Below are positions 26,455 to 32,356 of a DNA stretch of 64,000 bases, in pieces. The stretch covers positions 3,908,501 through 3,972,500 of the forward strand of contig NZ_CP030032.1 in NCBI RefSeq assembly GCF_003258315.1. The letters are read 5' to 3'. The notes beneath the pieces are model-generated. The model was not told the DNA's origin. It was given only the letters and a program-made list of their open reading frames with translations, and searched no databases. How positions within the stretch are numbered: position 1 is the stretch's first letter; the number at the start of each line of letters is the position of its first letter. The stretch comes from Bradymonas sediminis. GTDB taxonomy: Bacteria; Myxococcota_A; Bradymonadia; Bradymonadales; Bradymonadaceae. The translations under genes and the position numbers were made by a program.

Positions 26455-28164
26455 TTACCCACCCACGGCGCTGCCGTCGCTGCCCGAGGCTTCCTGGGCT
26501 GCGGCCATCTCCTCGGCGGTGAGGCGGTCGCGGATAAATTGGAAGATCTCGAGCAAGATCGAGGTCACCGGCACCGCCAAAAGGGCGCCCACCAGGCCGA
26601 AAGCGCTCTCGCCGGCGAGCAGGGCGAAGATGACGATGACCGGGTGGATATGGGCCGAGTTGCCGATGATCTGGGGGTTCAAGATATTGGCTTCGACGAA
26701 GTGGATAAACATGATCCAGGCGAAGGCCAAAAACGAGGTCCAGAAGCCGGTCATCAGCCCGACCAGCATGATCGGGATCGTCGAGATCACGGTGCCAAAG
26801 ACCGGGATCAACGTCAGCACGCCGGCCAAAAGCGAGAGCATCACGCTGAATTTCACGCCGATGAGCGCCAGCCCGATATAGGTCAGCACCCCGTTGATAA
26901 GACAGATGATCAACTGGCCGCGCACCACGCCCGACAGGCCGCGGTCGATGCGCCGCATCAGGTCGTCGTAGCCTGGGCGATACTCGCCGGGGAGCATATC
27001 GCGGAAGAACCCGTTAAATCGCGGCAAGTCGATCGACATAAAGGCGGCGACCATAAAGGTCAAAATGATCGTGACCAATATCTGGATGATCCCGACGGCC
27101 AGGATATGCGCGTAGCTAATCACCGCGGTGATTCGCTCCTGTGAGGTGCTGACAATGCCCTCGATCATCTGGTTAACCCGGGCCTCCAGGTCAATCAGCG
27201 TGGCCGGCACTGGGGTGGATTCACGCTTATAGTGGTGGCGATTGCCGCGCTGAACGCTCCAGGAGTCGTCGTCGATTCGGGTCACGACGACCTCGCCCTC
27301 GCCCAAGAAAAGCTCAACTTCGCCCTTGTCGCCCGGGACCATGCGCACGACGGCCGAGGGTTGGGCGTCGACAAAAGTCCAACTCCCGTGGGTACCGTAA
27401 TCGGCGAGTTCCTCGGAGGCGGCAGGCTCCGGGACGCCGCGATAGGTGACCTTGGGGCGCGCCTTTTCGGCGGCGGCTTCGCCGCCCGTTTCGGGCAACT
27501 CCGTGCGCACGGTGACGTTCACACCGTTGTCGACCTCAATGATCGTCTCGCCGGTCGACGCGGTCTGTTTGCCCGTCTGTCGGTCCACCTGAAATTTAAT
27601 ATTGGTCGCGCCGCGCGCGCGAGTCAGCGCCAATCCGGTGGCGGTGGCCCGCTGGGTCGCCTCGGTCCAGGCGCTGGCGACGTGCGCTCGCGCCGCGACA
27701 TGCTCGGTGCCCGGCGGCATAATGGGCAAATATTCGCGCACAAAATTCTGTAATTTCTCGTTAATCCCCGGCAGATTCTTCTGGCGGAAATTCGCCACGG
27801 TCTCGGGCACCGTCTCGGCGAATCGCGCCATCTCGTTGAAGAATCGCGGCACCACGACCACGAAGCCAGCCGTCAGAATCCCGAAGAACGCCAGATAAAC
27901 CGTGATCACCGCGACCCAGCGCGGGAAACGCACCGACATGCGCTTGACGATCGGGTTCATCAAATAAGCGATGGCGATCGCGAAGATGAAGGGCAATAAG
28001 ATCCGGTGAAAGAGGACCAGAATCAGGGCCAACAGGCCCATCGTCAGCAACGGCAAAAACAAGCGCCGACTACGGCTCATATGCCGATACCAACGCTTCT
28101 TATTTCCCTGCTTGGACGCAGATTCTTCGGGAGATTGCTCCGGTTCGTTCAATTGCTGGCTCAT
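26455..28164 (-). CDS. AI-2E family (PerM/TerC-like) membrane transporter with a soluble insertion
   Basis: Membrane protein of 569 residues in the AI-2E transporter/PerM family. Two N-terminal helices (about 36-80), a third near 90-108, and the conserved C-terminal multi-helix block (about 345-545; GQLIICLINGVLTYIGLALI, LIPVFGTVISTIPI, NPQIIGNSAHIHPVIVIFALL) are seen. The family is usually 340-400 residues. Here an extra stretch of about 170 residues (about 150-320) rich in Thr/Glu/Val and beta-prone segments sits where the short periplasmic loop should be. Family members export small molecules or ions; the substrate is unknown. Its ATG overlaps the stop of the carA homologue by 4 nt (ATGA), implying translational coupling. 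Confidence 0.88.
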   Translation of the reverse strand: MSQQLNEPEQSPEESASKQGNKKRWYRHMSRSRRLFLPLLTMGLLALILVLFHRILLPFIFAIAIAYLMNPIVKRMSVRFPRWVAVITVYLAFFGILTAGFVVVVPRFFNEMARFAETVPETVANFRQKNLPGINEKLQNFVREYLPIMPPGTEHVAARAHVASAWTEATQRATATGLALTRARGATNIKFQVDRQTGKQTASTGETIIEVDNGVNVTVRTELPETGGEAAAEKARPKVTYRGVPEPAASEELADYGTHGSWTFVDAQPSAVVRMVPGDKGEVELFLGEGEVVVTRIDDDSWSVQRGNRHHYKRESTPVPATLIDLEARVNQMIEGIVSTSQERITAVISYAHILAVGIIQILVTIILTFMVAAFMSIDLPRFNGFFRDMLPGEYRPGYDDLMRRIDRGLSGVVRGQLIICLINGVLTYIGLALIGVKFSVMLSLLAGVLTLIPVFGTVISTIPIMLVGLMTGFWTSFLAFAWIMFIHFVEANILNPQIIGNSAHIHPVIVIFALLAGESAFGLVGALLAVPVTSILLEIFQFIRDRLTAEEMAAAQEASGSDGSAVGG

Positions 28165-29378
28165 GGTTGGACCTCGCGGAGCATCGACATAAAGTCCGCC
28201 ACGAAATCACTGGTATCATTGGGGTTTACGAGCGCCGGAGGGTCATATTGACGCGCGATAAGCGGCAGCGTTTGATGACGAAAACCCTCGACGCTTCGGT
28301 CATTGAGGTTGAGATGAGTAATCTCGAGGGCCTCGGGGAAGCCATCGGCCTGCAAGGCGTAGCCGCGGTTTTGACGGGTCATAAAAACCCGCGAGTTGCG
28401 GACTTCCTGGACCGGTTGATTCGGGCCTCGGTGCCCGTTGGCCAACGGCGCGTGCTCTGCGCCGAAGGCGCGCCCCACAAGTTGAAAGCCCATCGAAACC
28501 GCCAGCGTCGGCGCGACTTCGGCCGCCTCGCGCAGCATGGCGAGGTCGACGTCCGCGCGCTCCGGGCTCCCCGGACCGCTGGACAAGACAATCCCAGCGG
28601 GCGCCAACGCCTTGATATCGGCGAGGCTTGAGGTCGCCGGCGCCAGGGTGAGGCGCACGCCGTAGGCGCTCAGGCGGCGCATGATGCGAAAGCTCGCGCC
28701 GAAGTCGACCACCACGATATGGGGCGACGCGTCGGCGGGATCTTTGGGCGCCTCATAGGGCATATATTCGATGCGCGCGTAGCCGAGATCTTCGTGCCCG
28801 TCGGGCAGTTTATTGGCGTGCACGCGCACCGAGGTCGGCTGGCGCACTCCGTGCTCGGAGAAGTCGCGCGCGCGAAAGTCGGGGTGCTCGGCGAGTTGCT
28901 CGACCCAGCGGGGCGCGTCAGCGGCGGTCTGGCCGCTGACAATGGCGGCCTTCATCTCGCCGTGGTCGCGCAGATAGCGGGTGAGCGCGCGGGTGTCGAC
29001 GTCGCGGATGGCCACCAGGCCGTGGGCGCGCAGCCAGTCTGGGAGGCTCGAATCCGCGCGATGATTGCTCGGTTTCTCGGTGATGCTGCGCACGATCAAG
29101 CCGGCCGCGGCGACGCCCGCAGACTCCATATCCTGGGCGTTCACGCCGTAATTGCCGATATGGGGCGCGCTCAAGCAGAGCAGGTGCCCGGCGCTGGCGG
29201 GGTCGCTTAAAAGCTCCTGATAACCCGTTAAGCTCGTATTAAAAACAGCCTGGCCGATGGCGACGCCGGGGGCGCCGGCCGCGTGTCCTTCAAAGCAGCG
29301 ACCGTCTTCGAGGACGAGAATCGCCGGCTCATTGGGGGAGAATTCACGCGTTGCGGAGGCAGCTTTTTGGGTTTCCAT
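28161..29378 (-). CDS. carA: CarA-like carbamoyl-phosphate synthase small subunit lacking the glutaminase triad
   Basis: Full-length homologue (405 residues) of the glutamine amidotransferase subunit of carbamoyl-phosphate synthase. The N-terminal CPSase small-chain domain is well kept (VFNTSLTGYQELLSDPA, PHIGNYGVN, DVDTRALTRYLRDHG). The class I amidotransferase domain folds in register but the catalytic residues are gone. The nucleophile motif GICLGHQ reads AVSMGFQ (Ser295), and the His/Glu of HPE read DPP (Asp379, Pro381). The 84-residue spacing equals that of E. coli Cys269-His353. It therefore cannot hydrolyse glutamine in the known way; ammonia use or a regulatory role is inferred. No carB lies in the window. 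Start ATG 29378 (GTG 29381 adjacent). It is translationally coupled to the downstream transporter. Confidence 0.85.
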   Translation of the reverse strand: METQKAASATREFSPNEPAILVLEDGRCFEGHAAGAPGVAIGQAVFNTSLTGYQELLSDPASAGHLLCLSAPHIGNYGVNAQDMESAGVAAAGLIVRSITEKPSNHRADSSLPDWLRAHGLVAIRDVDTRALTRYLRDHGEMKAAIVSGQTAADAPRWVEQLAEHPDFRARDFSEHGVRQPTSVRVHANKLPDGHEDLGYARIEYMPYEAPKDPADASPHIVVVDFGASFRIMRRLSAYGVRLTLAPATSSLADIKALAPAGIVLSSGPGSPERADVDLAMLREAAEVAPTLAVSMGFQLVGRAFGAEHAPLANGHRGPNQPVQEVRNSRVFMTRQNRGYALQADGFPEALEITHLNLNDRSVEGFRHQTLPLIARQYDPPALVNPNDTSDFVADFMSMLREVQP

Positions 29379-29473
29379 CACGTTTTATACCAGGCTTCCA
29401 AAAGAGAGACGGGAGTGCGGCGAATGAGGCGGGGATTATCATGCATGCTCGAGGCGCGCGGACCCACGCCTGC

Positions 29474-30439
29474 TCAGTGAATCATTTGCCCGATGCGGTT
29501 CCATCGGTAGGACTCCTCGCCGATCGACCACCAAATAAACAGCGCGCGCCCCTTTACATTCTGCAGCGGCACTTGCCCCCAACAACGCCCGTCGGAGGAA
29601 TTGTCGCGATTGTCGCCCATCGTAAAGATATGGCCGGGCTTGACCGTAATCGGCCCGAAATTCTCGTCGGCGCCCGAATATTGCACGGTGTAGGTGTGCC
29701 CGTTGAGACGCTTGGTCTCAACGATCTGATGCGGGTAGAGGAAATTGCCGGTGGCGACCTTTCGCAGCCCAAGGCTCTCGACGGGTTTATCGTTGATGAG
29801 GATCTGGTTGTCGCGCAACTCGACCTTGTCGCCGGCGACGCCGATGACGCGTTTAATGAAGTCGCGGTCCTCGTCCAGGGTGCTCATCTCGATGCATTGG
29901 CGGTGCGACGCGGGTTGCTTGAGCAGATATTCACGCGCCTCTTTGCTGGGGAATTTGAAGACCACGACCTCGCCGCGCTCCACGTCGCTAAACTCGACCA
30001 TATAGGATTGGGTGAAGGGAACGCGCAGCCCGTAGACAAATTTATTCACGAAAAGATGGTCCCCGACCAGCAGGGTCGGGACCATGCTCTTGCTCGGGAT
30101 CTTAAACGCTTCGATGACGAACGCGCGCAGCGTCAGCGCGAAGAGCACGGCCAGGCCGATGCTCTCGGCGTATTCGCGGAAGACGCTCTTTTGCTTGCCC
30201 TCGAGGTGCTCGTCAAACCAGGGGGTCAGGGTTTCGATATGCTGGTTGAGCGTCGCGATATCCTCGGCGCCGATATCGACCGACTCGATGAGCTGGCGCA
30301 GCTCATTAAGGTGCGCCTGGCCGCGATTGCGCACCTCATCGGCCAGACCCAGCGTGCGATCCAGGCGAGTCTGGTTATGACGGACGAACTCCCGCGCGGG
30401 GCGCAGGTCGTTCGTATCTATATTTTCCGATGTGCTCAC
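29474..30439 (-). CDS. lepB: Signal peptidase I
   Basis: Membrane serine protease that removes signal peptides from exported proteins. Of 321 residues, the first 85 are an unusual soluble helical N-terminal extension with no motif. A single anchor (SIGLAVLFALTLRAFVIEAF) follows. Catalytic Ser118 is in PSKSMVPT and the general-base Lys196 in DFIKRVIG. Box E GDNRDNSSDGRCWGQV is near the end. GTG 30439 is preferred because GAGG lies 6 nt upstream; TTG 30463 would add eight residues. It follows lepA by about 100 nt, the classic lepA-lepB order. The many lipoproteins and secreted proteins nearby need export, though lipoproteins use signal peptidase II. Confidence 0.95.
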   Translation of the reverse strand: MSTSENIDTNDLRPAREFVRHNQTRLDRTLGLADEVRNRGQAHLNELRQLIESVDIGAEDIATLNQHIETLTPWFDEHLEGKQKSVFREYAESIGLAVLFALTLRAFVIEAFKIPSKSMVPTLLVGDHLFVNKFVYGLRVPFTQSYMVEFSDVERGEVVVFKFPSKEAREYLLKQPASHRQCIEMSTLDEDRDFIKRVIGVAGDKVELRDNQILINDKPVESLGLRKVATGNFLYPHQIVETKRLNGHTYTVQYSGADENFGPITVKPGHIFTMGDNRDNSSDGRCWGQVPLQNVKGRALFIWWSIGEESYRWNRIGQMIH

Positions 30440-30538
30440 TTCAGGCCTCGTCGCGCCGTCCAACCCTACTGCAATGATGCCACAAAAATCGTATCGCTCG
30501 CGTTTCCCCAGACGCCGAAGCGTCTCGGGAGCCGCGCT

Positions 30539-32356
30539 TTATTCTTCGTCGATGCTCAGCACCGCAAGGAAGGCTTCCTGTGGGATCTCCACGCTGCCGA
30601 CCATCTTCATGCGCTTTTTGCCCTCTTTCTGGCGCTCAAGCAATTTGCGCTTTCGGCTGATATCGCCGCCATAGCATTTGGCGGTGACGTTCTTGCGCAA
30701 CGCGCGGATCGTCTCACGCGCGACCACGCGGCTGCCGATAGCGGCCTGGATCGGGATCTCGAAGAGCTGCTGGTGAATGACCTTCTTGAGCTTCTTGGTC
30801 AGCGATTTTCCGCGCTCAAACGCGAAGTCGCGGTGGACGATGACGCTGAGCGCGTCGACCACGTCTTTATTGACCAGCACGTCGAGCTTGACCAGGTCGC
30901 CGCGGCGATAGTCGATGACCTCATAGTCCAGGCTAGCATAGCCACGCGAGCAGGATTTCAGGCGGTCATAGAAATTATACATGACCTCGTTCATCGGGAT
31001 CTCGTAGGTCAAGATGATCCGATTCTCGCCGGCGTAGCGCATGTCAACCTGGGTGCCGCGGCGCTCTTCGCACAATTTCAGCACCGGCCCGATATGCTCC
31101 GGCGGCACGTGGATCGTGGCGCTGAGATACGGCTCCTCAATGAAGTCGATATATTGCGCGTCAGGCAAATCACAGGGGTTCTCAACCTCCAAGGTTTCGC
31201 CGTCCTCGGTGTGCACCCGGTAGATGACCGACGGGGCGGTGGTGATGAGGTCCAGGCCGTATTCGCGCTCCAGGCGCTCCTGGATGATCTCCATATGCAG
31301 CAGGCCCAAGAAGCCGCAGCGATACCCGAAGCCCAGCGCCTGGCTGGTCTCGGGCTCGTGGGTGATGCTGGAGTCGTTGAGCGTGAGCTTTTCGAGCGCG
31401 TCTTTGAGCGCGGTATAATCCGAGGAATCGACCGGGTAGAACCCGCAGAAGACCATCGGCATGACGTCTTTGAAGCCGGGCAGCGGCTCGGCGGCCTCTT
31501 TTTTATATTCGGTGATGGTGTCGCCGACTTTGGCGTCGCCGATGTCTTTGATCATCGTGATCACGAACCCGACCTCGCCGGGCCCAAGGCGGTCGACCGC
31601 CACCGGGGCTGGCGTGTAGGTGCCGAGCGCGTCGATCTCACCGCGGGCGCCGCTGGCCATCCACTTGATCTGCTGGCCCTTTCGCAGCTCACCCTCGACC
31701 ACCCGCACCAGGTTGATCACGCCGCGGTACGTGTCGAACCAACTGTCGAAGACCAGGGCCTTAAGCGGCGCGTCGACGTCGCCCACCGGCGGCGGCACCT
31801 GCTTAACGATCGCCTCGAGGATCTCGTGGATGCCGATGCCGTTCTTGGCGCTGGCGCAGACCGCGTCGGTGGCGTCCAGCCCGATGGTGTCCTCGATATC
31901 GGCTTTGACCCGTGGGATATCGGCCGCCGGCAGGTCGATTTTATTGAGGACCGGGATGATCTCCAGGTCGGCGTCCAACGCCAGGTACACGTTGGCCACG
32001 GTCTGGGCCTCGACGCCCTGAGAGGCGTCGACCACGAGGATCGCGCCCTCACACGCCTGCAGGCTGCGCGAGACCTCGTAGGTGAAGTCGACATGCCCCG
32101 GGGTGTCGATCAGGTTGAGCAGGTAGGTCTCGCCGTCGTCGGCCTCGTATTCCAGACGCACCGACTGCGCCTTAATGGTAATCCCGCGCTCGCGCTCGAG
32201 ATCCATGGAGTCCAGATATTGCTCTTTTTTGTCGCGCGAGGCGATCGCGCGCGTTTCGTCGAGGATGCGATCGGCCAGGGTCGATTTGCCGTGGTCGATA
32301 TGTGCGATAATCGAGAAATTACGAATTTTGCTCTGGTCAATCTTGCGTTTGGCCAT
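30539..32356 (-). CDS. lepA: Elongation factor 4 (back-translocase LepA)
   Basis: Ribosome-binding GTPase that can back-translocate stalled ribosomes. The 605 residues show the G1 loop HIDHGKST (about 19-26), G2 region [11 protein letters not shown]3 DTPGHVDF, and G4 NKID, followed by domains II, III and V and the LepA-specific C-terminal domain ([38 protein letters not shown]). The length is typical. ATG 32356 ([20 protein letters not shown]) is the family start. It heads the lepA-lepB-carA-transporter string on the minus strand. A large open frame on the opposite strand is only a mirror of its codon bias. Confidence 0.97.

Follow-up and report, generated by a model that had tools for sequence, protein, structure and literature searches.

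The small subunit of the carbamoyl phosphate synthetase (CPSase) of Bradymonas sediminis, CarA, lacks the Cys–His–Glu triad of the bacterial glutaminase site, and its amidotransferase domain is, judging from the residues that occupy that site, catalytically dead. We favour, at a rough probability of 0.56, a reading in which CarA is the non-catalytic partner of the large subunit, CarB, in an ammonia-fed CPSase that supplies arginine. From the sequence we infer that glutamine is not hydrolysed, that CarA continues to bind CarB and that ammonia is the sole nitrogen donor. An ammonia-dependent CarA was among the roles offered in the original prediction and appears to be the best supported of them, the sole carA of the genome carrying the dead site and CarB being intact. 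The features of the gene are given below in coordinates of the window, the whole 64,000-nucleotide stretch of contig NZ_CP030032.1 that was analysed; residue substitutions follow the numbering of Escherichia coli CarA.

28161–29381, minus strand: carA homologue without the glutaminase triad, 406 amino acids, GTG start, alternative ATG at 29378
28944–29321, minus strand: N-terminal CPSase small-chain domain, residues 21–146 (PF00988, 5e-44), largely kept
28212–28718, minus strand: class I glutamine amidotransferase domain, residues 222–390 (PF00117, 5e-28)
28563–28583, minus strand: oxyanion/glutamine loop, SSGPGSP replacing SNGPGDP (N240S, D244S)
28482–28502, minus strand: nucleophile elbow, AVSMGFQ replacing GICLGHQ (Cys269 to Ser, codon TCG at 28494–28496)
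28362–28370, minus strand: NRG replacing NHG (H312R)
28236–28244, minus strand: DPP replacing HPE (His353 to Asp, Glu355 to Pro)

The reading frame of carA is open, with 0 internal stops. Its product scores 329.8 bits against the model TIGR01368 (cut-off 307.35), indicating homology to CarA over the whole length, and matches both PF00988 and PF00117 above their cut-offs. Standard models, as the TIGR01368 match illustrates, annotate such a dead-site CarA as glutamine-hydrolysing; by ancestry the protein is a CarA, but by the triad test it falls outside the glutamine-hydrolysing family of its annotation. The AlphaFold model, built on a five-sequence alignment, is poor (mean pLDDT 60) and was left out of the argument.

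Positions were assigned by alignment to E. coli CarA, checked against NC_000913, and to PDB chains. In this alignment the Cys269, His353 and Glu355 that define the triad of bacterial CarA correspond to Ser296, Asp380 and Pro382, respectively, none of the three being retained. The replacements claimed in the original prediction (GICLGHQ by AVSMGFQ, and HPE by DPP) are confirmed, as are the 84-residue spacing between Ser296 and Asp380, equal to that between Cys269 and His353, and the altered supporting contacts in the SSGPGSP and NRG motifs.

The damage extends beyond the triad. At 80 positions that are constant in 17 other CarA proteins, E. coli included, the B. sediminis protein has lost 21, spread along its length: S47A, K202S, N240S, D244S, G267A, I268V, C269S, H272F, K285P, H312R, V316L, H353D, E355P, P358V, G359N and six more. 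Other CarA proteins have each lost between 0 and 2, apart from one outlier with eight. Sixteen of the losses fall among the 46 invariants of the amidotransferase domain and five among the 34 of the N-terminal domain (p = 0.07 for the contrast between domains), such that the latter, first described as intact, is largely so (29/34 invariants kept) but not entirely, S47A falling within it at the protein's own residue 62. Losses are enriched near catalytic and glutamine-binding positions (p 0.0002–0.003 for windows of 1–5 residues), the catalytic positions being those of the E. coli enzyme. At the exact catalytic positions alone the enrichment is weak (p = 0.08), because the loop glycines (Gly241 and Gly243), Gln273 and Asn311 are kept. 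Farther than 4 residues from the active site, 42 of 47 invariants remain. Mutants of E. coli CarA at G359 reportedly cannot use glutamine and can still use ammonia, behaviour with which G359N in B. sediminis would fit by analogy. A sequencing error was rejected, given the number of invariants changed along the protein (21/80) and the open frame.

The B. sediminis genome is complete (a single contig of 5,045,683 bp), and the absences reported here come from targeted HMM searches of it. The original prediction had raised the case of a second, canonical carA combined with decay of this copy. No second, intact carA was found in the genome, this gene being its sole full-length carA, and the second match to the CarA model is a PabA/TrpG-type protein; carA has neither frameshifts nor stops, and constraint persists away from the active site, even though the rate of CarA evolution is about sevenfold that of the sister lineage. 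Across a phylum sample of 141 genomes, B. sediminis CarA scores 329.6 bits and each of the other full-length CarA proteins at least 397; about 50 were aligned, 11 of them from the organism's own family, and all of the others keep the triad. The family is represented by 21 genomes, 12 of which, besides B. sediminis, contain CarA (in one case split over two contigs), with the triad kept wherever the site is covered. The Ser/Asp/Pro combination is therefore not conserved in orthologues and is confined to a single genus, which one genome represents. Identity to the closest relative (G142) is 52% for CarA, as against 77% for CarB and 85% for LepA.

One full-length CarB, the partner whose presence had been left to be established, is encoded at G000:C1:2826216-2829434 (1409.8 bits), unlinked to carA and more than 1 Mb away from it. 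All of its checked ATP-grasp catalytic, ornithine-site and UMP/IMP-site residues are kept, and it has lost 12 of 408 invariants, within the 2 to 18 lost in relatives. Nine of these 12 lie in the carboxyphosphate half and include R361S in the conserved PRF motif, a suggestive substitution that we treat as a lead and give no further weight. Class I amidotransferases (PF00117) number three in the genome: CarA, PyrG and the PabA/TrpG-type protein. The triads of the latter two are intact, and the loss is therefore specific to CarA; a general loss of amidotransferase activity is rejected on the same grounds. Glutamine synthetase is present, and no GuaA was found among the PF00117 matches, in agreement with the reported purine auxotrophy.

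The only member of the aspartate/ornithine carbamoyltransferase (ATCase/OTCase) family recovered by an OTCace_N search is an N-acetylornithine carbamoyltransferase (567.6 bits, cut-off 288). It belongs to a complete arginine operon that also comprises argG, an argE-type deacetylase, argB, argC and argH. No pyrB was found in the genome, nor any match to the models for pyrD (dihydroorotate dehydrogenase) and pyrF (OMP decarboxylase), which were matched in 14 of 14 control genomes. This pattern is in line with a published account (PMC7460792) in which most bradymonads are described as polyauxotrophs without an aspartate carbamoyltransferase. Because pyrB, pyrD and pyrF are missing while the arginine operon is complete, carbamoyl phosphate most likely serves arginine only.

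In E. coli, CarB forms carbamoyl phosphate from ammonia, whereas Cys269 and His353 of CarA are essential for the hydrolysis of glutamine; when supplied with ammonia, the E. coli enzyme needs it at very high concentrations (PMC6245113). In B. sediminis, CarA, with its glutaminase site dead, would persist in a structural and possibly regulatory role beside the intact CarB, which would convert bicarbonate, two ATP and free ammonia into carbamoyl phosphate, the ammonia arriving from solution and not from CarA. The product would pass to N-acetylornithine carbamoyltransferase and on to arginine, a direction of use that would follow from the loss of de novo pyrimidine synthesis. Ammonia released from digested prey protein may be what makes an ammonia-only CPSase affordable.

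Compared with bacterial CarA (E. coli CarA, PDB 1bxr, 1jdb and 1c30), the B. sediminis protein has the same domain order, length and whole-protein homology, a single intact CarB and an ancestral locus; it differs in lacking the Cys–His–Glu triad together with S47, K202, N240 and H312, in having carA and carB unlinked and in having no pyrimidine branch to feed. Its best PDB match by sequence is 1c30, a chain with Ser at position 269. The entry 1c30 is E. coli CarA C269S and 1a9x is H353N, the residues also being read in the PDB alignments. Such laboratory mutants likewise have a folded CarA with a dead triad, but are engineered single changes, in contrast to the natural loss of a whole array of residues in B. 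sediminis.

The second comparison is with vertebrate CPS I (human CPS1, PDB 5dot and 5dou), which has the same Cys-to-Ser change at the nucleophile position, to which its exclusive use of ammonia is ascribed (PMC4655335). Human CPS1 also retains its amidotransferase domain and delivers its product to the chemistry of the arginine pathway, not to pyrimidines; for B. sediminis the use of ammonia is the inferred part of this likeness. For the human enzyme, a route around the dead site has been proposed by which ammonia from outside gains entry (PMC4655335). Obligate activation by N-acetylglutamate is a further mark of CPS I. Unlike CPS1, the B. sediminis CarA and CarB are separate chains, far more residues are lost, and the origin is independent. 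A urea cycle of the kind found in organisms with CPS I was rejected: the only ureohydrolase found is of the agmatinase type (267.8 against a cut-off of 174.3) and not of the arginase type (80 against 227.6), and the carbamoyltransferase is of the N-acetylornithine type. The B. sediminis enzyme thus probably resembles CPS I, by analogy, in its way of working and would be convergent with it, without being a CPS I.

Reviews name glutamine as nitrogen donor for every bacterial CPSase (PMC6245113) and for every type of CPS other than CPS1 (PMC4655335), and the literature searched, outside which most subscription papers fall, contained no earlier account of a bacterial CarA whose triad is dead. The odds are about even that B. 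sediminis has a natural bacterial CPSase that works on free ammonia only, with a pseudo-glutaminase subunit, and that this enzyme arose in a predator once the pyrimidine pathway had been lost, separately from vertebrate CPS I. If so, it would represent a second, independent switch of CPSase to ammonia, in an enzyme that is simple to express and can be compared with those of close relatives whose triad is intact, making testable what role is left to a glutaminase subunit once glutamine hydrolysis has gone. The finding also adds one specific step to the polyauxotrophy described for bradymonad predators.

The surroundings of carA are as follows.

26455–28164, minus strand: AI-2E family transporter gene (PF01594, 2.3e-61), ATGA overlap with carA, ancestral neighbour
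29382–29473, minus strand: lepB–carA spacer, 92 bp, no pyrB remnant; sister genera carry pyrB (aspartate carbamoyltransferase) there
29474–30463, minus strand: lepB (signal peptidase I), conserved neighbour upstream of carA, identified from homologues and gene order in the family
30539–32356, minus strand: lepA (elongation factor 4), conserved neighbour upstream of carA, identified from homologues and gene order in the family

The ancestral operon order lepA–lepB–pyrB–carA is common to the sister genera, and pyrB has gone cleanly in B. sediminis. The coupling of carA to the AI-2E transporter gene, pointed out originally, is real in that the ATGA overlap exists, but carries no functional information, being old synteny: sister genera with a normal CarA (L042, L045 and L107) have the same gene order with overlapping frames. 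A functional link between CarA and the transporter was rejected for this reason. The match of the transporter itself to its Pfam model falls into two parts, and a long additional segment precedes residue 328, as though the membrane domain had been split by an insertion. In three related bradymonad metagenome-assembled genomes (MAGs) of genus g7, G145 (L111:5155-6123), G091 (L112:5576-6520) and G144 (L113:5277-6212), pyrB is open, carA is absent between pyrB and a PP2C gene, and a full-length carB was not found. The carbamoyl-phosphate-binding motif STRTR of PyrB reads SPQTR in G091 and STGTR in G144, and KGES is altered in all three (MGQS, REES and IGES); the product is possibly a parallel pseudo-ATCase.

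Branch lengths estimated on a fixed tree show how far CarA has departed from its relatives. The CarA branch measures 0.90 substitutions per site in B. sediminis against 0.12 in the sister (ratio 7.3), with the acceleration seen in both domains; the corresponding ratios are 2.1 for LepA (0.149 versus 0.072), 1.5 for LepB and 3.3 for CarB. At four-fold synonymous sites carA differs from the sister by 57.5%, the random expectation being 61.5%, while 52% of residues are shared (about 190 of 401 differ). In a neutral simulation, the probability that carA remains free of stops was 0.13 at 60 replacements, about 0.01 at 120 and 0/1500 at 190. Recent, complete loss of constraint is compatible with the first of these values and in that sense possible. 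Nevertheless, the frame has stayed open, synonymous sites are close to saturation and distant invariants are mostly kept, which argues that the protein is still selected for; constraint on CarA appears relaxed or shifted, not vanished. Neither a frameshift nor a stop nor an even loss of constraint, the marks of a pseudogene, is seen, constraint being kept away from the active site.

The main rival to an ammonia-fed CPSase is slow decay, which we consider rather unlikely. Here the loss of pyrimidine synthesis would have lowered the demand for carbamoyl phosphate and left CarA unconstrained, its gene carried along open but without use, the frame held by the coupling to the AI-2E gene, with CarB alone, or hardly anything, making carbamoyl phosphate from ammonia. 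The sevenfold acceleration in both domains is as such decay would have it, the missing carA and altered, open pyrB of the g7 genomes (G091, G144 and G145) look like successive steps in the decay of this operon, and growth of the organism takes place on rich medium and prey (PMC11509652). Set against this are the retention of 52% of residues without a stop at near-saturated synonymous divergence, the clustering of losses at the active site while 42 of 47 distant invariants stay, and the intact CarB and arginine operon. Several points nonetheless weigh against the ammonia-fed CPSase: the dead site is known from one genome of one genus, acceleration of the whole of CarA is also expected from relaxed constraint, the enrichment of losses at the exact catalytic positions (p = 0.08) and the contrast between domains (p = 0.07) are weak, and the E. 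coli enzyme demands very high ammonia (PMC6245113).

It is improbable that CarA has taken up a new job outside CPSase, such as ligand sensing, leaving CarB to work alone. Fast evolution with frame and whole-length homology retained would suit such a change, as would the radical nature of H353D, E355P and H312R, but the N-terminal domain, exclusive to CPSase small subunits, is the better kept (29/34), no new domain or insertion is seen, and carA sits at its ancestral locus. That glutamine is still hydrolysed, with Ser296 as nucleophile and Asp380, or that another amidotransferase feeds ammonia to CarB, is very improbable. A Ser does sit where the nucleophile belongs, and Gln273, Asn311, Gly241 and Gly243 have been retained; however, the same Cys-to-Ser change has been cited to explain why human CPS1 cannot use glutamine (PMC4655335), H353D, H312R and E355P leave no general base, and the only further PF00117 proteins that could act as suppliers are PyrG and the PabA/TrpG type.

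Three other genomes of the sample show unusual arrangements of these genes. G112, a MAG 84% complete, has a full-length CarB (L114 / L067), and no CarA and no ATCase/OTCase-family protein were found in it, a pattern that may reflect incompleteness or a CarB working alone. G119 has an intact carA and, elsewhere (G119:C276:5091-6111), another CarA-like gene, divided between two overlapping frames and containing an internal TGA, which looks like a decaying extra copy. In the bradymonad G043 (L046 / L116), carA and carB are adjacent within an arginine operon, unlike the lepA–lepB–pyrB–carA locus of its relatives, and CarA is divergent, with 35% identity to that of B. sediminis; the pair is perhaps a replacement by transfer.
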